Part shown: positions 2,382 through 39,556 of the stretch, piece by piece
Position numbering within the stretch: position 1 is the stretch's first letter
Layout: each line of letters starts with the position of its first letter
IMG/VR virus record: IMGVR_UViG_3300029787_000123
Coordinates: 1-39,892 of that record
DNA: 39,892 bases
Direction: 5' to 3' (one strand)
Source of the DNA: a virus
The notes under the pieces: model-generated
The model's input: only the letters and a program-made list of their open reading frames with translations
What the model was told of the DNA's origin: nothing
Database searches by the model: none
Made by a program: the position numbers and the translations under genes

Positions 2382-2407
2382 TAAAATAAACTAATTTTAT
2401 AAGACAT

Positions 2408-2440
2408 AAAAAAAGGGCTACACCGAAATGTAACCCTTTT
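2408..2440 (-). terminator. Rho-independent terminator
   Basis: Minus-strand RNA forms a 12-bp stem (arms 2440-2429 and 2422-2411) with a 6-base loop and one U-G wobble, followed by seven U. On the plus strand the same position is a C-A mismatch, so the hairpin is tuned to the minus strand. It lies just after the 28-residue ORF and ends the operon running from 3727. Confidence 0.85.
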
Positions 2441-2443
2441 AAT

Positions 2444-2530
2444 TTATCCTAAAACTAAAGGACTAAAACAAAGCATTATGAAGATTGTAGCTATGCAAAT
2501 AATCCCTAAAATATCTTCTAATTTATCCAT
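2444..2530 (-). CDS. Possible 28-aa membrane peptide
   Basis: Begins MDKLEDILGI and continues as a hydrophobic segment with two cysteines, ending LVLG before TAA. It starts two bases after the stop of the gp88-like gene, has AAGG nine bases upstream, and ends four bases before the terminator. That tight packing argues it is a real final cistron. A single membrane helix is expected; function unknown. Confidence 0.45.
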   Translation of the reverse strand: MDKLEDILGIICIATIFIMLCFSPLVLG

Positions 2531-2531
2531 A

Positions 2532-3134
2532 TTATTTAACCTTTTCTATGATAGTAGTAACTTTGTTTTTAGTGTAACAAAGTAAACAATCTTTGCATTT
2601 AGAATGACAATTAATACTAGGTATCTTTTCAGTTACATTATTAAATGTCTTATCAAAATGTTTAGGTGGTTTCTTTAATGGTCTATCTAATAGACTATTT
2701 GAAAAGATAAGAATTAAGTTTTTAGGTTTCTTGTTATTATCAAAATATCTAAAAATTAAATCTGTTCTTTTAGTCCATAGAGTGAAAGTACAATGTTTAT
2801 TCTTTTTTGTAATGTTCACTAAATTAATTAAATGAGTTTCATTAATTAATTCACCATGGGAACTAAACCTAAAGTAAAGACTGTTTATAGTAGGTAATAA
2901 AGACTGTTGAATAATACTTGAAGAAAGTAATCTAGAATTTTTAGAAAGAACTTTAGTCATATTCTTTCTATATCCAGTTAAGCTTTTCATTGAGTAACAT
3001 TTAGAACAAATAGAGTTCTTAATCTTACTTTGTTTTAAACAATATTCATTAGTAGAAGTATCTGTTGATATACTGTTTATTTCTTCCAGTTTAAAATATC
3101 CTTTTGAGATATGTATAGTTTCTATCGTATTCAT
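2532..3134 (-). CDS. Gp88-like cysteine-rich phage protein
   Basis: A 200-residue protein that resembles the mycobacteriophage L5 gp88 type of unknown function. It has an N-terminal CSKCYSMK (Cys43, Cys46), a central FRFSSHGELINETHLINLV and TLWTKR block (residues about 88-123), and a C-terminal cluster Cys176-x3-Cys180-x2-Cys183-x2-Cys186-Tyr. The clustered cysteines suggest an iron-sulphur or zinc site. The family link rests on my recall of the motif order, not a search. The SD (GAGGG, 8 bases before ATG) lies in the 3' arm of a hairpin, so translation is probably regulated. It is the main gene of the operon between the phage promoter at 4352 and the terminator at 2408. Confidence 0.65.
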   Translation of the reverse strand: MNTIETIHISKGYFKLEEINSISTDTSTNEYCLKQSKIKNSICSKCYSMKSLTGYRKNMTKVLSKNSRLLSSSIIQQSLLPTINSLYFRFSSHGELINETHLINLVNITKKNKHCTFTLWTKRTDLIFRYFDNNKKPKNLILIFSNSLLDRPLKKPPKHFDKTFNNVTEKIPSINCHSKCKDCLLCYTKNKVTTIIEKVK

Positions 3135-3139
3135 TTTAT

Positions 3140-3212
3140 AAACCCTCTTAGAAGTGAAATTTTAGCTTCCTAGAGGATTTAAGAGATAGAGTAGCATTAT
3201 AACCACTCTATC
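3140..3212 (-). promoter_or_regulatory. Structured leader that buries the ribosome site of the gp88-like gene
   Basis: Two adjacent hairpins in the minus-strand RNA. The first pairs 3212-3205 with 3192-3185 (GAUAGAGU with ACUCUAUC, 8 perfect bp). The second pairs 3180-3166 with 3154-3140 (14 of 15 positions, two G-U) and its 3' arm contains the AGAGGG ribosome site. The shared middle segment 3192-3167 can instead pair along its whole length with the upstream leader at 3806-3781, which would free the ribosome site. Confidence 0.6.
3167..3192. repeat. 26-bp inverted repeat, near copy
   Basis: Matches the reverse complement of 3781-3806 at 24 of 26 positions. Both differences become G-U pairs in the minus-strand RNA, so the two copies can form an unbroken 26-bp RNA duplex. 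The copies flank exactly the two genes 3221-3475 and 3479-3727. Confidence 0.85.
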
Positions 3213-3220
3213 TATCTTTA

Positions 3221-3475
3221 TTAGCTTATGTAGTCTCTTACTGGCTTAGTGCCTATTCCTATTGGAAAGCGACATTGAGTTATATAGTAAGACCATGCTA
3301 TATCATAAGCATTATATCCAAACTTGTTTTCAATTTCTTTACATATATCAGTCAAAACAAATCCTTTTAAATCACTTTTGAAAGATTGTTTAACTAGCTT
3401 ATCAAAGTAGTTTTGAACATCTATTTTGAAGATACGTTTATCTTCTTCATAGTTTGGCTTTGGTGTTTTACCCAT
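3221..3475 (-). CDS. Hypothetical protein, 84 aa
   Basis: Charged N-terminus (MGKTPKPNYEEDKRIFK), probably helical, then an aromatic-rich C-terminal half (YDIAWSYYITQCRF). No family or catalytic motif recognised. Only three bases separate it from the stop of the preceding 82-residue gene, so the pair is one translational unit. Both lie between the arms of the 26-bp inverted repeat, so they may be gained, lost or controlled together. Confidence 0.6.
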   Translation of the reverse strand: MGKTPKPNYEEDKRIFKIDVQNYFDKLVKQSFKSDLKGFVLTDICKEIENKFGYNAYDIAWSYYITQCRFPIGIGTKPVRDYIS

Positions 3476-3478
3476 TGT

Positions 3479-3727
3479 CTATACCCTTTCAATAGTAACA
3501 TTTAAGAACTTGTTAAATCTCATTGTAGGCATCCCTATAAACATTGTTCTATTTCCAGAATTACCTAGATAGAAATATTTTGAGTTATAACCCCAATGAA
3601 AAGCTAAACTTTGCTTTCCTCTAGTTATTCCGTAACGCTTAACGGAAGTTCTAGGAAGAAATGTCACTACTCTTCTTGAGATTAAAAGAGAAAGAATTTG
3701 AGTAAATGTAATTTTATTATTAACCAT
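3479..3727 (-). CDS. Hypothetical basic protein, 82 aa
   Basis: Strongly basic protein with many Arg and Lys in residues 18-40 (SRRVVTFLPRTSVKRYGITR), followed by a beta-like aromatic stretch. It may bind nucleic acid, but I recognise no family. An AAGGA site lies nine bases before the ATG at 3727. It is the first sizeable gene after the large terminase and follows a leader several hundred bases long. Confidence 0.6.
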   Translation of the reverse strand: MVNNKITFTQILSLLISRRVVTFLPRTSVKRYGITRGKQSLAFHWGYNSKYFYLGNSGNRTMFIGMPTMRFNKFLNVTIERV

Positions 3728-3780
3728 TGGTTTAAGTTCCTTATATAAAAATACTAGTGAAGCACTAGCAAGACAGATGC

Positions 3781-3806
3781 ACTCTATCTCTTAAACCCTC
3801 TAAGAA
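3781..3806. repeat. 26-bp inverted repeat, distal copy
   Basis: Partner of 3167-3192. In the minus-strand RNA it carries AGAGGGUUUAAGAGAUAGAGU-like sequence that imitates, end to end, the two local partners of the near copy (the SD arm at 3154-3140 and the arm at 3212-3205). It lies about 55 bases upstream of the gene starting at 3727. Confidence 0.85.
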
Positions 3807-3831
3807 ATTAAGCATTATTTCAGCTTAATTT
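3805..3831 (-). other. 9-bp hairpin in leader
   Basis: Perfect arms AAATTAAGC (3805-3813) and GCTTAATTT (3823-3831) around a 9-base loop. In the RNA it directly precedes the distal inverted-repeat arm and shares its last bases. It has only a very short U tract, so it is not a convincing terminator. It may shape the leader. Confidence 0.5.
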
Positions 3832-3948
3832 ATAACCAACAATGTCAAATAGCATAGGTGAGAAAACTAAATAAAGGCTAGGCATAGCAACCCACTTAAA
3901 TAATCTTTTAAGGTATTTTTTAAATAATGTAAAGCAATGAATAAATTA

Positions 3949-3977
3949 TTTATAAAGCATTAGAAAAAAACAGACAA
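3949..3977 (-). promoter_or_regulatory. Candidate sigma70 promoter
   Basis: Minus strand TTGTCT (3977-3972, four of six), a 17-base spacer, TATAAA (3954-3949, five of six). It would start RNA near 3942 and drive the genes at 3727-2444 with a leader over 200 bases long that includes the 26-nt element. AT-rich DNA gives such matches by chance, so this is moderate evidence only. Confidence 0.4.
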
Positions 3978-4030
3978 ACAAGAACACAAACCTAAAAGAA
4001 ATAATCAATAAAACTTCATCAATTATTCTT

Positions 4031-4047
4031 TCCGATACCTTATCGGA
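4031..4047. other. Tight hairpin TCCGATA-loop-TATCGGA
   Basis: Seven perfect base pairs with a 3-base loop, in non-coding DNA. No U tract follows on the minus strand. It could be an RNA processing or stability element, or a DNA recognition site near the genome end. Confidence 0.5.
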
Positions 4048-4210
4048 TGTTACCTAGTTATTTATAAGGATTTGCTATGATAGTAGTGACATTTATAGAG
4101 ACATACCACCACCACCCCATAACGATTTTAGAGGACTAGGGAAGGGCTATGGGGGTATTTGCAGCAGGTGTATCTACGTTAACCCCCTCAGATTTTTTTA
4201 TCAAAACCTT

Positions 4211-4288
4211 TTAATCCATACAATTACATTTATCACTGCACTTACGATTTAATAAAGCACATATAATTCTTTTAAAGTACCTATACAT
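4211..4288 (-). CDS. Possible 25-aa cysteine-rich peptide
   Basis: ORF beginning MYRYFKRIIC and ending in a C-x3-C-x-C cluster before the stop, with GAAGGG nine bases before the ATG. Basic and hydrophobic first half, metal-site-like second half. It lies about 65 bases downstream of the phage promoter at 4352. The ribosome site and residue pattern are suggestive, but the ORF is very short. Confidence 0.3.
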   Translation of the reverse strand: MYRYFKRIICALLNRKCSDKCNCMD

Positions 4289-4351
4289 TTTATCTAACCC
4301 TTCTATAATTACTTATAACTAATATATAATAGAGTGTATATATCTGTTCCC

Positions 4352-4370
4352 TCTAGTATGCACCCTATTA
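4352..4370 (-). promoter_or_regulatory. Phage RNA polymerase promoter, copy 3
   Basis: Minus strand TAATAGGGTGCATACTAGA. It shares TAATAGGGTGCATA and the final AGA with the sites at 28641-28659 and 37087-37105. It lies just downstream of the large-terminase stop and points into the long leader, like T7 promoters near the genome ends. Confidence 0.75.
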
Positions 4371-4374
4371 ATTT

Positions 4375-6033
4375 TTACCTAAGATTCAACCAGTTATCTG
4401 ACTTAGCTTTTCTTCCTACAGCAGATTCCATAAACCTTTCTAACTCTTCATCAAGTAAAGTGTTCTTATGGTCTTGTACTGCATCTTCAATATTTCTATC
4501 CATAGTTTCTACCCAGTAGTTAACTGCTATAGACAGAGCATCAAGTCTGTCATCATGTATTAAGCTACCCTTATCTCTAGTTAATCGAGTTAACTGGTAG
4601 AACAACTTATACTTTAAAGCATTGTCAGTATTATAATCCTCTGTAATGACTTTATCATCCACTACAAGCCTGTGTTGGTTTAGTATAGGCTCTAAGGTAT
4701 CTATAATCCTTCTTTCCTTCTGTACGTTATGTCTGACTTCTTCTATAGACACTGGATGCACTTTACTGAGGACAGGCTTTAGTATCTGAGTAAACATCCC
4801 ATCACCAAAGTTACTTTCTACAATAATCTTGTTGACGTTCTGTCTCTTAGCAACACCTGTTAAAACATCTAAGGACTTCTGTTGATAACCGTCTTGAGTT
4901 CCACCACATTCCGTAAGGTACAACATCCCTTTCATCATTTTGACAACTGCATAAGCTGTCTCGTCCTTTCCTCTTCCTGCAGGGTCGATACTCATAACCG
5001 AACCATCCCATTCTGCAGTCTCCTGACTTATTGTCATTGGATTGCACCAGTAGTCTCCTTTCAACCCTATATTGGGTAATTGTTTACATCCGTCTAACTG
5101 TTCCTTACCAGAAGCCCATTGCACATTGACAGGAGCTTGATTCCATGAGGAACATCCAGACATTACTATAAAGTCGTTAAGCTTTAGAGGGTACTTGTCA
5201 GCATCAGAAAGGCTAACATCAAGCATAAATTGTAAAGCAAACCCACTTCTACCATAAGAAGCCTCTCTTTCTAATAAATCATCTTCATCAAACCTCAAAG
5301 GGTCTGTTGGTTTTCCTTCTAAACCGTCTTTCTCAGCTATTGTAGGGGATAATTTATACCCCATAGCCACCTTTAAACGGTCATCAGGGTATCTTGAAGT
5401 CCATATCCTAGTCTTATAGCCTCTTTCATCTAAGAGGTTGTATATGGACATCTCTGTTTGAGGAGTCCCTAGAAAGACAATCCTTCCATTAGGCTTAATA
5501 ATCGCCTCAAATTCCTTAATAGTCTCTGCTAACTTGTCTCTCATCATCTGTGTCATAGAGTTATTGGCACTCTCTACGTCATCAGCAATGATTAAGTCTG
5601 CTCTTGACCCTGTTAACTGCCCTGTTATCCCTAAACTCTTTACTGAAGGAGCATGAGAGGCTTGTGCAGGAGCAACATCAAAGCTTATCTTAGACATTCT
5701 CTGCCCATCTCTAGGTTTTAGGTGGGCTAACAAAGGCATTTCATGGATTAACCTCAGAGTAAACGTACTGAAGTCATCTGCCCTAGTCTTAGAGGCAGAA
5801 ACAACTAATATATTCTTCTGTGGATTAAGTAGTAACTGGTGACAGACGTAGGCTGAAGTTATCCAACTCTTGCCTACACCCCTGAATGCTTCAATAACAA
5901 CCCTCCTCCCTGTTTCATCCTGTAGGAAGTTAGAGATGTCGTACTGGATTGGGGTAGGGTCAGGGAGGTTAAGGTGTTTCCATGTTATATAAAGAAAGTT
6001 TTTGAAGTCCTTCAGTTTTCCTACAGTCTTCAA
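4375..6033 (-). CDS. 19: Large terminase subunit (T7 gp19-like)
   Basis: Packaging motor that cuts concatemers and pumps DNA into the procapsid. It aligns along its whole length with T7 gp19 as I recall it: Walker A in EAFRGVGKS (48-56), Walker B with Asp151-Asp152, the coupling motif LGTPQTE (188-194), and nuclease acidic residues Asp350 (SIDPAGRGKDETA), Glu406 in ESNFGDGMF, and DDRLD (494-498). Its 552 residues compare with 586 in T7. The start must be TTG at 6033, because a stop lies two codons upstream and no in-frame ATG lies before the conserved N-terminus. That TTG overlaps the upstream TGA (TTGA) and has no clear SD, so it probably depends on translational coupling. Confidence 0.97.
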   Translation of the reverse strand: MKTVGKLKDFKNFLYITWKHLNLPDPTPIQYDISNFLQDETGRRVVIEAFRGVGKSWITSAYVCHQLLLNPQKNILVVSASKTRADDFSTFTLRLIHEMPLLAHLKPRDGQRMSKISFDVAPAQASHAPSVKSLGITGQLTGSRADLIIADDVESANNSMTQMMRDKLAETIKEFEAIIKPNGRIVFLGTPQTEMSIYNLLDERGYKTRIWTSRYPDDRLKVAMGYKLSPTIAEKDGLEGKPTDPLRFDEDDLLEREASYGRSGFALQFMLDVSLSDADKYPLKLNDFIVMSGCSSWNQAPVNVQWASGKEQLDGCKQLPNIGLKGDYWCNPMTISQETAEWDGSVMSIDPAGRGKDETAYAVVKMMKGMLYLTECGGTQDGYQQKSLDVLTGVAKRQNVNKIIVESNFGDGMFTQILKPVLSKVHPVSIEEVRHNVQKERRIIDTLEPILNQHRLVVDDKVITEDYNTDNALKYKLFYQLTRLTRDKGSLIHDDRLDALSIAVNYWVETMDRNIEDAVQDHKNTLLDEELERFMESAVGRKAKSDNWLNLR

Positions 6034-13235: not shown

Positions 13236-14579
13236 TTATAACGCTATCGACATAGCAATCGTGAACCCTGCAGTGGGTAAGCCTGTTGTACTAACTGCTG
13301 CAACTTCCCATGCAGAACCATTCCAAACTTTCAAATCTGTACTAGACGAGTTATAGTACAATGCACCTGTCTGAAGGGCATTTCCGTCATTGTCTACGGA
13401 GGGGTCTGAGGACTTTGCACCTAAGTACGAGTCATCTACGGAGTCGGCTGAAGCTGCTGCTTGCTCTGCATAATACTTAGCTGAGTAAACACCTCCAGAG
13501 ACTGCAGTATTAGTAGCGTAACTTCCTCCTCCACCTATAGCCCACTGTTTAGCAGAACCATTACTCTGTCCTGACTGACTACCTATAGCCCATTCTTTAG
13601 CTGAGTATTCAGTACCATCGACTTGGTTAGTCGTATCTGTTGCCCACTCCTTTGCTGAACCAGAACCTGCAGTGTCTGTTACTCCTGTTCCTCCTAAAGC
13701 CCATGCCTTAGAAGAGTAACCTTCACCTGTTTCTACTTCTCCATTTACTTTAACTGCCCAATTCTGTGAAAGGGTTTCAGCAGTTTCAGAAGCAGTCTTA
13801 GCTGTTTCAGAAGCAGTCTTGGCAGTTACTGAAGCATCTCTAGCTGTTTCAGAAGCAGTCTTGGCAGTTTCAGAGGCAGTCTTTGCAGTTACCGAATCAT
13901 TTTTAGCAGTTACTGACGTATCTCTAGCACTTTCTGATGCTGATTGAGCAGTTTCTGAAGCAGTCTTAGCAGTCTCTGAAGCAGTTTTTGCAGTTACTGA
14001 AGCATCTCTAGCTGTTTCTGCTGCGTTTTTAGCATTTGTTGCTGCAGTTGCTGAGTTTCCTGCATTGGTTTCAGATGTTGAAGCAGCAGTTGCACTATTT
14101 GCAGCATTCGTTGCATTAGTTGCCCCAGTGGATATTTGACTATCTACATAAGCCTTTGTAGAAGCATCCTGTGCAGACGTAGGGTCAGCTACATTGGTTA
14201 TTCTTACACTTCCTGCATCGTAGACGTTAGTCAGGGTCTTTGCCAAAGCATCGTTAGCTTTGTCGATAGCTTCTTGAGCCATGTTGAAAGACTGAATACT
14301 GTCCGTATCTAAGTCTGACTCTTTAAAGACAGAACCTGCTTGGTAGTCCACAAGCCTTGTAGTCTGACTTGTACTTCTGGTGAACTGAATAGCTACCCCA
14401 TTAGCAGGAGCAGTACCAAACTGTATCTGACTGCTAGTTGGGAATGTGTAGTGAGTTGTAATTGTTTTTGTAACACCATCTAATGTCACAACTACGTCAT
14501 CAGTGGAACGATAAGTAAACCCTATGGTGTATGTTGTGGTACTATTATTCCCTGTATATTTAGTTAAAGCATATGCCAT
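13236..14579 (-). CDS. 17: Tail fibre (T7 gp17-like N-terminal domain)
   Basis: Residues 1-150 resemble the virion-attachment domain of T7 gp17 (TYTIGFTYRSTDDVVVTLDG, LVDYQAGSVFKESDLDTDSI, then NMAQEAIDKANDAL). Residues 190-273 are twelve consecutive heptads of the type A-K-T-A-S-E-T, a coiled-coil stalk. Residues 288-372 carry five copies of a S-x-K-x-W/Y-A motif. The C-terminal 65 residues include DGNALQTGALYYNSSSTDLKVWNGS-type sequence, a known short fibre-end module. At 447 residues it lacks a large receptor-binding tip, which suggests that the downstream array proteins complete the fibre. Confidence 0.85.
   Translation of the reverse strand: MAYALTKYTGNNSTTTYTIGFTYRSTDDVVVTLDGVTKTITTHYTFPTSSQIQFGTAPANGVAIQFTRSTSQTTRLVDYQAGSVFKESDLDTDSIQSFNMAQEAIDKANDALAKTLTNVYDAGSVRITNVADPTSAQDASTKAYVDSQISTGATNATNAANSATAASTSETNAGNSATAATNAKNAAETARDASVTAKTASETAKTASETAQSASESARDTSVTAKNDSVTAKTASETAKTASETARDASVTAKTASETAKTASETAETLSQNWAVKVNGEVETGEGYSSKAWALGGTGVTDTAGSGSAKEWATDTTNQVDGTEYSAKEWAIGSQSGQSNGSAKQWAIGGGGSYATNTAVSGGVYSAKYYAEQAAASADSVDDSYLGAKSSDPSVDNDGNALQTGALYYNSSSTDLKVWNGSAWEVAAVSTTGLPTAGFTIAMSIAL
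13761..14012 (-). repeat. Twelve tandem 21-bp units in the tail fibre gene
   Basis: 252 bases encoding twelve heptads (A-[KRQE]-x-x-S-x-x), five or more identical as AKTASET. The DNA copies are near-identical in places, which points to expansion and contraction by slippage or recombination and so to variable stalk length. Confidence 0.85.
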
Positions 14580-21571: not shown

Positions 21572-23629
21572 TTATATCCTTCTTGACCTTATGTGGTAGA
21601 ACCCTTCCCACTCAGCATTCTGGAATGCACATGGTAAGTAGCTATCTGAGGTTACAGATATATTCACACGGTCATTTTTTGATTGGACAGGGAAACGAAA
21701 AGTCCCATCAGAAAGAATTACATCTTCAATAGTAGAACTAGCTTGGTTAAGAACCACTCCTGTAAACTCGTATTCGTTGGTGGTTCTGGCTTCTGGAGTA
21801 ACTTGTATTCTGAAGAACCCTGTGTCCTCATAATTTACTCTCATAGTTCTTAGTTGAAGTCTCCCTGACTGAACAGACTGTGTTCCATTCTTTTCCCTAA
21901 CGTGTTGAGTAGAAAACTGATAAGACATGGTGTAAGGTACACCTACAATTACTGAGGCAGAGCTATAGTCACCTGTGGCTGCAATCGTAGAAGTAGTAGG
22001 TCTGGTAGTTGTAATGTCCACACCTTTACGGTTAGACCAACTTCCTGACTTAGCTACAACCATTGTCCCATCATAGACGTAAGGAAGTGTCCAAGTTGTT
22101 ATGTTTGTTCCTGCATTGTATGAGCCTGTTAGAATGTTCTTTCTATCGGCTCTGACGTTAAAAGTAAGTCCTGTGTCATTAGGATATTGTAGCTTTACTT
22201 TTTCTACAAACACCCCATCAGACCTACTTATAACTAAATACAATTCATTTTCTAAAATATTTATATCTAGTATAGATGTCCCTGTAGCAAACTCCCATGT
22301 TGACCAACTTGATTGAAGTTTCTGAGAACCATCAGTAAACCATTTATAGATATAAAGTTTTCCCCTATCTTCAGAAGATAAGCATACAAGAATATCCTCA
22401 TTACTAGAGGTAGCTAACTTAGTTATATTTTTAGGTATATACTTAGGAACGTGTGCAGTCACTTCTAAGGCATCCGTAATAACTGTATCTGACTGAACAT
22501 AGTATTCTCTAACACTAGAAAAATCTCCTTTCCTAGAAACAAAGAATAGGTAGTTTCCTGCCCCTACTGGAGCAACACTTGTATCATTCTCAAATTCTGT
22601 ACTAGGGATAATAGATATAGTCTTAGGTGTTAGTGAGCCTAAGTTCTCAATAGTAAATTGTGTATTATCTGCAAAAAGTGTTAGTGACTCATTAAAAGGT
22701 ATAGCGTGTTTTAGTAAAGATACTTTAGTGTGGGCAACAGATACATCTATAGGAGCTTCATCTAAAAGAGTTGTAACTGTCTTTGGGAAGAACCTTAAAA
22801 AGTCTCCTGCAGCACTCATCACAACATTTTCTTCTGTAATAAATCCTAAACGGTTCTTATAGAAGAACATATTAGATAACTTTTTACCTACATAAGATGG
22901 AAAAGGAGCAGAGATAGAGTCTCCTGCAGTTCTATTTCCCCATGTATTTTGTTGTAGTGTAAAATTAAATGTTCCTGAACTACTAGGCACAATGGAAAAA
23001 GGCATAGTAGTGTAGTCTAGTTTGTATGTTTCTGCAGGTTTTACTGTTTCCTCATAGGTATTAGCACTTAATGCTTTAACATAATATGTATCAAAACTAT
23101 TTGTTTCAGAGCCTATAACTTGATATAGATAACCTGTTGTAGCATTAGTAGGAAGGTCTGCAAATTCTTGATAATTAGTACCTTGTAGTGAACCACTTAC
23201 TACAGCACTATTTGCAGCAACTGTTTTAGTTTTATTAAGTACAAATGTAAAATCAGCAACAGTTAAAAATTGCAGGTCATTTGCAGGGTCATTACAGTAT
23301 AGGTATTGAAGGTTAGTTGCAGAAGCGTTGACAGTAACTGCACTACCACTTAAATCAAAAGCACTAATTGAAGCAGAAGAAGACGTAGCCTGAACAATTA
23401 AAATATGTTGAAACCCTGTTCCTCTGTCTACAACGTGAATTGCAGCGTTACTTACTGCACTATTAATAATCTTTGCTATGTGCTCTGTAGGAGGTCTTTT
23501 AATTAGTCCATCAATAACACTAGATAAAGCATTTACTTGGCTTTCTCCCTGTGTCACCTGCCTAATACTTGAAGGTTGTTGACTTACCCCATTTAATAGG
23601 TTTGGAATACTTGTACTTACGAGTGCCAT
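21572..23629 (-). CDS. 12: Tail tubular protein B (T7 gp12-like nozzle)
   Basis: A 685-residue beta-rich protein. It starts MALVSTSIPNLLNGVSQQPS, the signature opening of T7-like gp12 proteins (IPNL..GVSQQP...R...Q...N..S), and includes DGLIKRPPTEHIA, LGFITEENVVMSAAGDFLRFFPKT and a C-terminal RIQVTPEART region. T7 gp12 has 794 residues. It forms the tail nozzle. It lies between the gp11-like gene (one base apart) and the GNAT gene. Confidence 0.93.
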   Translation of the reverse strand: MALVSTSIPNLLNGVSQQPSSIRQVTQGESQVNALSSVIDGLIKRPPTEHIAKIINSAVSNAAIHVVDRGTGFQHILIVQATSSSASISAFDLSGSAVTVNASATNLQYLYCNDPANDLQFLTVADFTFVLNKTKTVAANSAVVSGSLQGTNYQEFADLPTNATTGYLYQVIGSETNSFDTYYVKALSANTYEETVKPAETYKLDYTTMPFSIVPSSSGTFNFTLQQNTWGNRTAGDSISAPFPSYVGKKLSNMFFYKNRLGFITEENVVMSAAGDFLRFFPKTVTTLLDEAPIDVSVAHTKVSLLKHAIPFNESLTLFADNTQFTIENLGSLTPKTISIIPSTEFENDTSVAPVGAGNYLFFVSRKGDFSSVREYYVQSDTVITDALEVTAHVPKYIPKNITKLATSSNEDILVCLSSEDRGKLYIYKWFTDGSQKLQSSWSTWEFATGTSILDINILENELYLVISRSDGVFVEKVKLQYPNDTGLTFNVRADRKNILTGSYNAGTNITTWTLPYVYDGTMVVAKSGSWSNRKGVDITTTRPTTSTIAATGDYSSASVIVGVPYTMSYQFSTQHVREKNGTQSVQSGRLQLRTMRVNYEDTGFFRIQVTPEARTTNEYEFTGVVLNQASSTIEDVILSDGTFRFPVQSKNDRVNISVTSDSYLPCAFQNAEWEGFYHIRSRRI

Positions 23630-37138: not shown

Positions 37139-39556
37139 TTAAGCGAAAAAGAAATGGCTCTCTTCTACCACCTCTATATCCAAGTCACCCTTTCTAGGTG
37201 TCTCAGCTAAGTCTTTATGTTTGTGTTCAGGTAGTATGTCCATGAGGTCAGTTTTAAAGTCCTCTAAAACATCACACTGTTTATACATTTCTACAAAAGC
37301 TTTCCGTAAACACCACCATAACTGACCTGCATCAGAAGCATGAGTACCATAACTGTCGTGTACCATAGCAAAGTTATGAATATCACACTGTTGAGCTACG
37401 TTAATCGTAATCATCATATGACTAGCATCAATGCTATGAACAAAGTTAGGGCTTATTCCGTTTGCCTGTCTGTTTTTGTCAATCTTACCTGTCTCTTTAT
37501 AAATCATAGGCTGAAAGATAGACCCTAAGAGTTTGGTCTTAATACGGTAAGGTTTAGTAGCCTTGTAAGCCTGTAGTACAGGGAAGTTAACAGGAGTGTC
37601 CCAACGTATAGGTAATCCCTCCGAACTAGCCACCCTAGATGCCCTTTGTAACCATGCCATAGCATCAGTTGCAGCATGAACTACTTCAGCTATAGAGTCC
37701 CATATAACTTTGGCAAGAAAGATGGAAGCCTTGAAAGCATCCTCTCCAAAAGGATGGAGGTTACCCTTCTCTCTCTGCTCTACTAAGTAATCCATAACAA
37801 AGTCAGAGAAAGAGTATTGCTTTCCACCATAAGGCAACACCATACAAGGACGTTTAGTACATCCTCTGGCAACACCAAACTCTAGCCATAGTTTTGCAAA
37901 GTGGTTATCCATAGTTTTAAGTTTATCAGTCACCTTGTCAGCTACTTTCTGGTAGATGTCTTGAGGTTCATCCATAGGAATAAGATTAACTTCCTTACCT
38001 GTAGTAGAGCTTCTCAACATGGCTGCAAAATGCTGAAGACCATTACAAGAACCATCTGCTGCAATAGGTAAGTGGGAAACAAAACCTTCCCCCTCTTCTA
38101 TCCATCCTTGCCACTCCTTACAGAATGCTAGGAACTGGAAGGGAGAGTCAGCTTCCTTTGCCCACCATAGGTCAGACAGAGGGTCTTTGGCACATGATAG
38201 TATTCTGTCTGTGTTCTCCTCAACCCAACCTACCCTCTCTTCTAAGGACACCTTATCAAAGCCAAAGGTGTTAGCTCCCTGAATAGCTAGGTAACCTGCA
38301 CTCTCTGAGTCGATAGGTTTGCCTATAGAGAACTTCAACAAAGCTTTAGCAAAGTCAGTCCCTTGAGGATTGAGGTAATTAGGCACTGCATAGATACGTC
38401 CTCTGAAGTCGAGTTGGTACACCATGTAGAGGGCTTCCTCATCCTTGAACTTATCAGCTATCTGGATGGTCTTCCGTAACAAGAGCCTTTTGGAGTCCAA
38501 GCGATTGTTCTCCGTATGGATAATTACTGCTTCCCTTTTCCACTGTGTCCTAGCTTCTTTGTTGGTGGCTATGTCCAATGGCTTGGAGGGAATAGGATAA
38601 TTTTCTGAGGGAGGTAAAGTAGGTAGTTCTATACCTGTATCCCAAATATCCTTGAGCACTCCTAAGATAAACTGATTAACCTTGAAGCCTGTCTTCTGCA
38701 TGGCATTTACTGCTCCATAGACTTGGGGCATATCGAAATGCTTTAACTCAGATAGGTAGTTGTGGTTGTCAGTCTTCACTAAGGTAATAGGACGGATATT
38801 GTGCGTGTGATACCCACCCTCATAAGGTGAAGTCCAATCTTTAGGCTCTGCTATGCAAGGGTAAAACTCAGGCTTCATAATCTCCTTGAAAGCATTAAGG
38901 TCTTTGATTGCTTTCATGGTTTCATCTGAAGGCAACAGGAGTCTCCTTTTCTTGCCATCCTTCATCATTATCTTATGAGTCAGGAGTCCTGTATGCTGAA
39001 TGGTCAAATCTATGAGAGCATTGCCAACAAGAAGTCTGTCTCTCTGTGTCCAAGACTGCCACTCGTTACCATCTCTCCTAGAAGCTTCGATAAGTTTCCT
39101 TCTCTTGTAGGAATAGGACGAACTTCTGGACTCCAAGTCCTTCATCACGACACTCAAAAGGTACGGATTGTTCTCCTCAAAGGTTCGTATCCTTATCTCG
39201 TCCTCTAAAGCCATGCCTAGAGCTATAGAACTGGACGTATAAGCCCTTTGTCTGGTGATTTGGTTCAACACTACCCTCAAAGTTATAACGGCAGTTACAG
39301 AGGGTTCTAAGGAGGATACAAGGACTGCACCTGTTGCAGACTTTCCTGCTCTACCTTCCATACAATCCTTGACATATCCCTCAATAGCGTTTTGGAGAGC
39401 TTCTAAGGTGGCAGTCATCAGGTACTGACCATATGAAGTGGTACTCTCCTGTCCTCTCTCTGCCTTTTTAAAATTATTTTTGTGGTATCTTGTGACACCA
39501 CTCTCACGCATCTCTTTTTCTAACAAGACTTGTCTATTGCTCGTTTCATAGGTCAT
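37139..39556 (-). CDS. 1: Single-subunit DNA-dependent RNA polymerase (T7 gp1-like)
   Basis: Transcribes the middle and late phage genes. 805 residues (T7 has 883). Catalytic residues fit T7: Asp501 in ADGSCNGLQHFAAMLR (T7 Asp537), Lys568 and Tyr576 in TKRPCMVLPYGGK (T7 Lys631, Tyr639), Asp734 in VHDSYGTHA (T7 Asp812). It ends SHFFFA, like the FAFA foot of T7. The N-terminal domain has the T7-like motif TRYHKNNFKKAERG and is shorter. AAGGAG precedes the ATG at 39556. It should recognise the 19-bp sites at 4352, 28641 and 37087. It is transcribed with the early genes from 2083-2110 through the circular junction. Confidence 0.97.
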   Translation of the reverse strand: MTYETSNRQVLLEKEMRESGVTRYHKNNFKKAERGQESTTSYGQYLMTATLEALQNAIEGYVKDCMEGRAGKSATGAVLVSSLEPSVTAVITLRVVLNQITRQRAYTSSSIALGMALEDEIRIRTFEENNPYLLSVVMKDLESRSSSYSYKRRKLIEASRRDGNEWQSWTQRDRLLVGNALIDLTIQHTGLLTHKIMMKDGKKRRLLLPSDETMKAIKDLNAFKEIMKPEFYPCIAEPKDWTSPYEGGYHTHNIRPITLVKTDNHNYLSELKHFDMPQVYGAVNAMQKTGFKVNQFILGVLKDIWDTGIELPTLPPSENYPIPSKPLDIATNKEARTQWKREAVIIHTENNRLDSKRLLLRKTIQIADKFKDEEALYMVYQLDFRGRIYAVPNYLNPQGTDFAKALLKFSIGKPIDSESAGYLAIQGANTFGFDKVSLEERVGWVEENTDRILSCAKDPLSDLWWAKEADSPFQFLAFCKEWQGWIEEGEGFVSHLPIAADGSCNGLQHFAAMLRSSTTGKEVNLIPMDEPQDIYQKVADKVTDKLKTMDNHFAKLWLEFGVARGCTKRPCMVLPYGGKQYSFSDFVMDYLVEQREKGNLHPFGEDAFKASIFLAKVIWDSIAEVVHAATDAMAWLQRASRVASSEGLPIRWDTPVNFPVLQAYKATKPYRIKTKLLGSIFQPMIYKETGKIDKNRQANGISPNFVHSIDASHMMITINVAQQCDIHNFAMVHDSYGTHASDAGQLWWCLRKAFVEMYKQCDVLEDFKTDLMDILPEHKHKDLAETPRKGDLDIEVVEESHFFFA

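Follow-up and report, generated by a model that had tools for sequence, protein, structure and literature searches.

Complementary distant leaders accompany the GP88 gene of T7-like pelagiphages and may govern access to its ribosome site

Long-range pairing within bacterial and phage mRNAs is known from few cases, mostly concerning toxins and plasmid replication genes. In plasmids of the IncI-alpha and IncB groups, a long-range pseudoknot coupled to translation of repY activates repZ, and the early region of phage T7 carries the RNase III processing sites R0.3 to R1.3. In the hok and AapA/IsoA mRNAs, metastable local hairpins precede a 5′–3′ long-distance interaction (PMC6733600). In Staphylococcus aureus, pairing between the 5′-UTR and the 3′-UTR of icaR hides the ribosome site and creates an RNase III substrate (PMC3868564); the T7 site R1.1 is discussed in PMC6121014.

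Here we describe a predicted long-range pairing which is a conserved trait of a phage group infecting SAR11, among the commonest bacteria of the sea, and which links neighbouring genes, in most members as a chain. In the virus record analysed, a segment in the leader of a small gene, orf1 (A; Table 1), is complementary to a segment in the leader of gp88 (B), the two leaders lying about 600 nt apart; B can also pair locally with two further segments, D and C. As with long-range cis pairing of mRNAs in general, there is complementarity beyond chance and there are compensatory changes. We found no earlier description of the element in the open-access literature on pelagiphage early-gene inverted repeats or RNA structure, and no Rfam covariance model matched it; a sub-threshold chance miRNA hit, at four loci, lies outside the element.

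The element shares features with each of the known systems. As in repZ, a distant complementary segment is predicted to relieve structure hiding a downstream ribosome site, although the repZ pseudoknot is short, spans a much shorter distance and is driven by translation of a leader peptide, whereas the pelagiphage duplexes comprise 20–31 pairs over 300–1050 nt. The likeness to hok and AapA lies in the metastable local hairpins that hide a Shine–Dalgarno sequence, with which the prediction for our sequence agrees (unpaired probability 0.01; covarying D–B hairpin). In hok and AapA, however, the long-distance pairing masks the site and renders the mRNA inert until 3′ trimming activates it, whereas the pelagiphage pairing is mostly predicted to unmask; the former also involve a toxin gene and an antisense RNA, whilst GP88, orf1 and orf2 match no toxin family in Pfam and the pelagiphage pairing joins leaders of different genes of one putative operon. 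With icaR the element shares a pairing that spans a gene to join two untranslated regions of the same mRNA near a ribosome site, forming a possible RNase III substrate. The UCCCC of the icaR 3′-UTR, however, covers the ribosome site and represses, whereas the pelagiphage arm lies upstream of the site and is predicted to expose it; unlike in icaR, the pairing covaries and forms a chain of two duplexes. Finally, double-stranded RNA elements between the early genes of a T7-like phage recall T7 itself, but the T7 sites are local hairpins, whereas in pelagiphages the two strands come from separate leaders, and related pelagiphages that have no GP88 do not carry the duplexes.

The sequence analysed, hereafter the window, is the whole 39,892-nt virus record IMGVR_UViG_3300029787_000123, which, judged from its sequence, is a T7-like podovirus. 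The closest named relatives of its terminase are an uncultured marine phage and Pelagibacter phages, at about 67% identity; megablast of positions 2400-4600 against named phages gave no match. The orf1–orf2–gp88 module lies on the minus strand directly behind the terminase gene, and in pelagiphages the GP88 module sits between the terminase gene and the MarR, integrase and RNA polymerase genes. Homologues of orf1 (54–55% identity) and orf2 (28–36%) occur in the same six contigs. A tblastn search with orf1 gave no match, nor did a search for it in bacterial and archaeal genomes, and a wider orf1 alignment held only the seven contigs already known; with Bylgja GP88 as query, none were found among viral contigs. 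The AlphaFold model of the window GP88 is confident (pLDDT 93.6) and has no significant match in the PDB, i.e. no solved relative, and the structure prediction for orf1 has a pLDDT of 41. Six cysteines (C32, C46, C176, C180, C183 and C186) are invariant in the GP88 proteins of the window (2532-3134) and its relatives.

Table 1. Coordinates of genes and RNA segments in the window, and of capsid-gene complementarities in three other pelagiphage loci.
Feature	Record	Positions	Strand	Remarks
Terminase large subunit	window	4375-6033		T7-type
RNA polymerase	window	37139-39556		T7 kind; assigned by reading its sequence
orf1	window	3479-3727	minus	82 aa; first gene between A and B; no Pfam match
orf2	window	3221-3475	minus	84 aa; second gene between A and B; no Pfam match
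gp88	window	2532-3134	minus	200 aa; Pfam GP88 (PF17338), E 2.2e-6, passes curated cut-off
A	window	3781-3806	minus	TTCTTAGAGGGTTTAAGAGATAGAGT; upstream arm, orf1 leader
B	window	3167-3192	minus	ACTCTATCTCTTAAATCCTCTAGGAA; downstream arm, gp88 leader; 5′ half also pairs with D, 3′ half with C
C	window	3139-3154	minus	pairs with 3166-3181 (3′ part of B); holds gp88 ribosome site AGAGGG, 3143-3148
D	window	3202-3213	minus	5′ arm of local hairpin with 3184-3195 (5′ part of B); local fold
E	window	3771-3777	minus	local partner of 3′ half of A (3783-3789), 7 pairs; local fold, window and relatives
F	window	3752-3770	minus	hairpin then U run, terminator-like; between A and orf1
G3	window	3729-3736	minus	CTTAAACC; one base ahead of orf1 start codon
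Capsid complementarity	L203	2717-2745 with 3665-3693
Capsid complementarity	L204	13486-13510 with 14426-14450
Capsid complementarity	L205	20699-20723 with 21642-21666

On the minus-strand sequence, A and B pair without mismatch over 26 uninterrupted positions, two of which are G-U, just as the preliminary description had reported. Among the repeats listed for the window, 3162-3192/3781-3811 extends over 31 nt at 87% complementarity, other long pairs being mostly at 70–79%. When the whole window was scanned for duplexes with arms 60–6000 nt apart, A–B ranked first with a score of 60.0 (runner-up 44.5), whereas the top score of 60 dinucleotide shuffles averaged 41.2 and never exceeded 47.5. The energy of the duplex between the two leaders is 5.9 standard deviations below that of shuffles.

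A search with orf1 yielded six further distinct contigs carrying orf1, orf2 and gp88 in the same order (L089 duplicates L088, and the fragment L001 retains just the gp88 leader). The A–B duplex is found in the same places in all six, with 21–23 pairs. In an alignment of its 20-pair core, every cell is a standard pair, eight pairs are changed on both sides and two on one side only, a result reached by none of 500 shuffles; slid registers give no two-sided change. One core pair is A-U in L085 and L088, G-U in L084 and L086/L087, and G-C in L090 and the window. Of the eight two-sided changes, seven distinguish the window from the other contigs and so lie on one long branch, the segments having been registered by hand; nonetheless, matching changes in both arms at all those sites are very unlikely to have arisen by chance. 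In the D–B hairpin, where 98.9% of cells pair, three base pairs carry two-sided changes, the covariation sitting in the upper part, outside the pairing with A. The pairing of B with the ribosome site, B–C, is kept in 93.7% of cells with only one-sided compatible changes. The preliminary description had looked to conservation and covariation as its own test: all three pairings are kept in relatives, A–B and D–B with compensatory changes. A chance origin of A–B was considered, and is ruled out by the shuffle scores, the duplex energy and the covariation statistics.

In named pelagiphages, too, the terminase gene is followed by between one and three small genes, some 100 nt and then GP88. A duplex of the A–B type, in the same place and of other sequence, is present in every GP88-bearing T7-like pelagiphage that we examined, namely Bylgja, HTVC120P, HTVC134P, HTVC309P, the fosmid phages S42-C7 and S46-C10, and 14 IMG/VR loci. 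In Bylgja and S42-C7 it extends over about 31 positions of the same two leaders and is unrelated in sequence to that of the window; more generally, lengths are 20–26 pairs in the window's lineage and 22–31 positions elsewhere. A search with S42-C7 GP88 gave 68 loci, 51 of which were tested for the duplex; it was found in 15, comprising L135 (which is S42-C7) and fourteen others up to L151 and L155, with no significant duplex at the other GP88 loci tested. The duplex is absent from HTVC115P, HTVC024P, Greip and HMO-2011, phages of other types in which GP88 is present, and from HTVC031P; the GP88 relatives L004 and L106 (by reading) and Greip L131 (by scan) have no such arms. HTVC019P, HTVC022P, HTVC201P and HTVC121P are temperate and have the same region, in which no GP88 was found, and show no duplex, only weak U/G-rich matches. 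From this pattern of presence and absence it follows that, among T7-like pelagiphages, the element accompanies GP88. What the sequences show directly is that the leaders are complementary, that this complementarity is conserved through two-sided changes, and that it is confined to one phage group.

A second duplex first surfaced in a downstream stretch taken as a control. There, a second part of the gp88 leader is complementary to A2, a segment in a leader some 1.05 kb further downstream, past gp88 and a small gene. It is present in all but one of the examined set, the exception being L155, the sequence of which ends too early; HTVC120P, HTVC134P, HTVC309P and S46-C10 each have both duplexes. 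In Bylgja and S42-C7 the two are the strongest long-range duplexes of the genome, and in HTVC134P the second ranks first genome-wide. Comparison of Bylgja with HTVC134P reveals five two-sided changes in the first duplex, four in the second and no one-sided change, with the internal U-U kept. An internal U-U mismatch always accompanies A–B in the Bylgja, S42-C7 and L146 types, and is absent from the window's lineage.

The departures from Watson–Crick pairing bear on whether the element works as RNA. In distinct A–B duplexes, which are not independent events, we counted 18 G-U, 21 U-U, six bulges, five others and a single A-C. Such an excess of G-U and U-U over A-C is expected under selection on the transcript strand; neither DNA-level selection nor repair acting between the repeats would favour G-U over A-C or keep U-U in diverged arms. 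On the basis of these departures, the kept U-U and the kept orientation of the genes, we take A–B to be an RNA element, with high confidence.

Local alternatives to A–B were obtained from folds restricted to 150 nt. The 5′ part of B pairs with D through 12 pairs (3213-3202 with 3195-3184), where eight had been described, and its 3′ part pairs with C through 15 (3181-3166 with 3154-3139), taking in AGAGGG. The resemblance of A to C and D joined end to end, already remarked on, holds and arises because C and D both pair with B. B itself ends 18 nt ahead of AGAGGG (3148-3143), and the long-range arm does not cover the Shine–Dalgarno sequence. The preliminary description made no mention of the local partners that A has in its own leader, at 3777-3771 and 3736-3729; the latter, CTTAAACC, is complementary to GGTTTAAG (3790-3797) within A. 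In relatives, the local fold pairs the 5′ part of A with a segment covering the orf1 start codon, and the predicted G3–A pairing near the orf1 start is suggestive. By reading, both arms of the hairpin at the F position vary among relatives.

Folding of the window gave AGAGGG a predicted unpaired probability of 0.69 with A available, which fell to 0.01 when A was masked or when pairing was confined to local partners. The proposal that one fold closes the gp88 ribosome site and the other opens it thus agrees with the prediction for the window, and likewise for most relatives, but not for all. Across 21 sequences, the gp88 region from −20 to +3 is more open by a mean of 0.15 with long-range pairs (Wilcoxon p 3e-5, uncorrected for relatedness); its opening change is in the top 10% of RNA windows in the seven sequences checked and in the top 3% in five of them. 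In the L084–L090 contigs the Shine–Dalgarno hexamer itself shows no opening. Folding with and without A, the effect of which is clear in the window, changed nothing when A alone was masked in five relatives belonging to the Bylgja, S42-C7 and L146 types, so that a coupling of gp88 to the state of the first leader, as originally suggested, is not established. In S42-C7 and HTVC134P it is the downstream partner that does the predicted opening, in Bylgja either partner suffices, in L145 opening is nearly independent of both arms, and in L147 the ribosome site is predicted to be more closed with the long-range pairs. The predicted change in accessibility at orf1 is inconsistent, and a symmetrical opening of both ribosome sites by A–B, which was considered, is not borne out there.

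Our functional statements all derive from predicted folds such as these. The mRNA probably folds across the gene block as a whole, thereby controlling translation or RNA cutting; for the window, the single reading we favour most is a translational switch at the gp88 ribosome site, which we regard as evenly poised. The gp88 leader would fold on itself through the D–B and B–C hairpins, burying its ribosome site, and its pairing over some 600 nt with the orf1 leader (A–B, 20–26 pairs) would free that site; with A–B predicted to be more stable than the local hairpins, transcription of both leaders would allow the RNA to refold and render the gp88 site accessible. We infer that the RNA acts in cis, chiefly by refolding and less by being cut, and that GP88 synthesis is raised after the block has been transcribed, which would mark the GP88 family as one whose synthesis is under elaborate control. 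Against a switch, 20–31 pairs exceed what one needs and suit RNase III, and translation of orf1 and orf2 would place ribosomes in the way of pairing between the flanking arms.

In the group of Bylgja, HTVC134P and S42-C7, the gp88 leader would have two partners, upstream A and downstream A2, with each gene block closed by its own long-range stem; in two of the five relatives tested it is A2 whose pairing is predicted to release the ribosome site. We tentatively suggest a daisy chain, in which successive leaders of the early operon carry partly overlapping arms for the previous and the next leader, such that a stem of its own would close each block and, as the following leader is transcribed, a ribosome site would pass from closed to open. 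If true, DNA phages would have a new architecture of RNA control, one linked in T7-like pelagiphages to the GP88 module. Bylgja, HTVC120P, HTVC134P and HTVC309P are cultured carriers, making the pairing directly testable.

The most serious rival to the gp88 switch is RNA processing, a credible reading that we hold to be the less probable. Stems around 16S and 23S rRNA serve as closing stems in RNA processing, and the long duplexes might similarly be RNase III substrates, or closing stems separating early polycistronic gene blocks, with opening of the ribosome site as a by-product. The 20–31 pairs provide about two helical turns, the Bylgja, S42-C7 and L146 types have an internal U-U mismatch, two adjacent stems enclose two adjacent gene blocks, and opening of the ribosome site is predicted non-uniformly. 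An alphaproteobacterial RNase III requires longer double-stranded RNA than the E. coli enzyme (PMC6121014), and the module lies in a region which in the related HTVC022P (RNA polymerase, MarR, integrase), itself without the duplex, is expressed early (PMC12753301). However, HTVC019P, 022P, 201P and 121P have the same early region, no GP88 and no duplex, which argues against a processing device common to these phages generally, and pure processing leaves unexplained why, in the window's lineage, B keeps its pairing with D, which covaries, and with C. Host RNase III may also cut the long duplex that would form on refolding, and the switch and RNase III processing may both hold.

Small RNAs activate rpoS by pairing, and on that model the orf1 leader would end at F, giving a short RNA whose segment A would activate gp88 by pairing with the B of other transcripts. 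In the window, F followed by ATTTTTATATA is terminator-like and A would lie exposed on its 5′ side, but in relatives F is AU-rich with a short U-run, and the second partner of the Bylgja group lies downstream, behind gp88, unlike a small RNA gene; we consider a trans-acting leader improbable. Inversion or insertion of a gene cassette bounded by A and B as a 26-bp inverted repeat, the DNA-level alternative of the preliminary description, is highly unlikely: the arms do flank one to three small genes, varying in number among relatives, but the enclosed genes run in the transcript direction in all records, the first is homologous throughout each group whilst later ones come and go, the arms diverge between lineages yet stay complementary, U-U mismatches included, with departures that are G-U in the sense strand rather than A-C, and the overlap of two repeats in the gp88 leader is awkward for cassettes. 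No inverted or empty copy of the segment was seen among 22 sequences.

With regard to the transcription of the module, a terminator-like hairpin lies behind gp88 in the window (2440-2411, minus strand), and another lies about 180 nt before orf1, ahead of its leader, in L084–L090. On this basis the orf1–gp88 module may be a separate transcription unit; a sigma-70-like promoter candidate upstream of A was unconvincing. The motif AATTAATAGGGTGCATA occurs on the minus strand of the window at 4373-4357, 28662-28646 and 37108-37092, one copy having two differences; one copy directly follows the terminase gene and another the RNA polymerase gene. Three copies were reached in no shuffle, and we regard them as candidate promoters for the phage RNA polymerase.

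Other repeats were also observed. In HMO-2011 (L213), a Puniceispirillum phage, TAGTCCGCTGTCGGACTTA at 59-77 has inverted copies at 1261-1277 and 1924-1942, among the first genes. Three pelagiphages have a further long-range complementarity, in which the capsid-gene leader is complementary to the 3′ part of the coding sequence of that gene (Table 1). Within the window, the open reading frame 13236-14579 contains a 21-bp repeat, eleven-fold, at 13734-14079.
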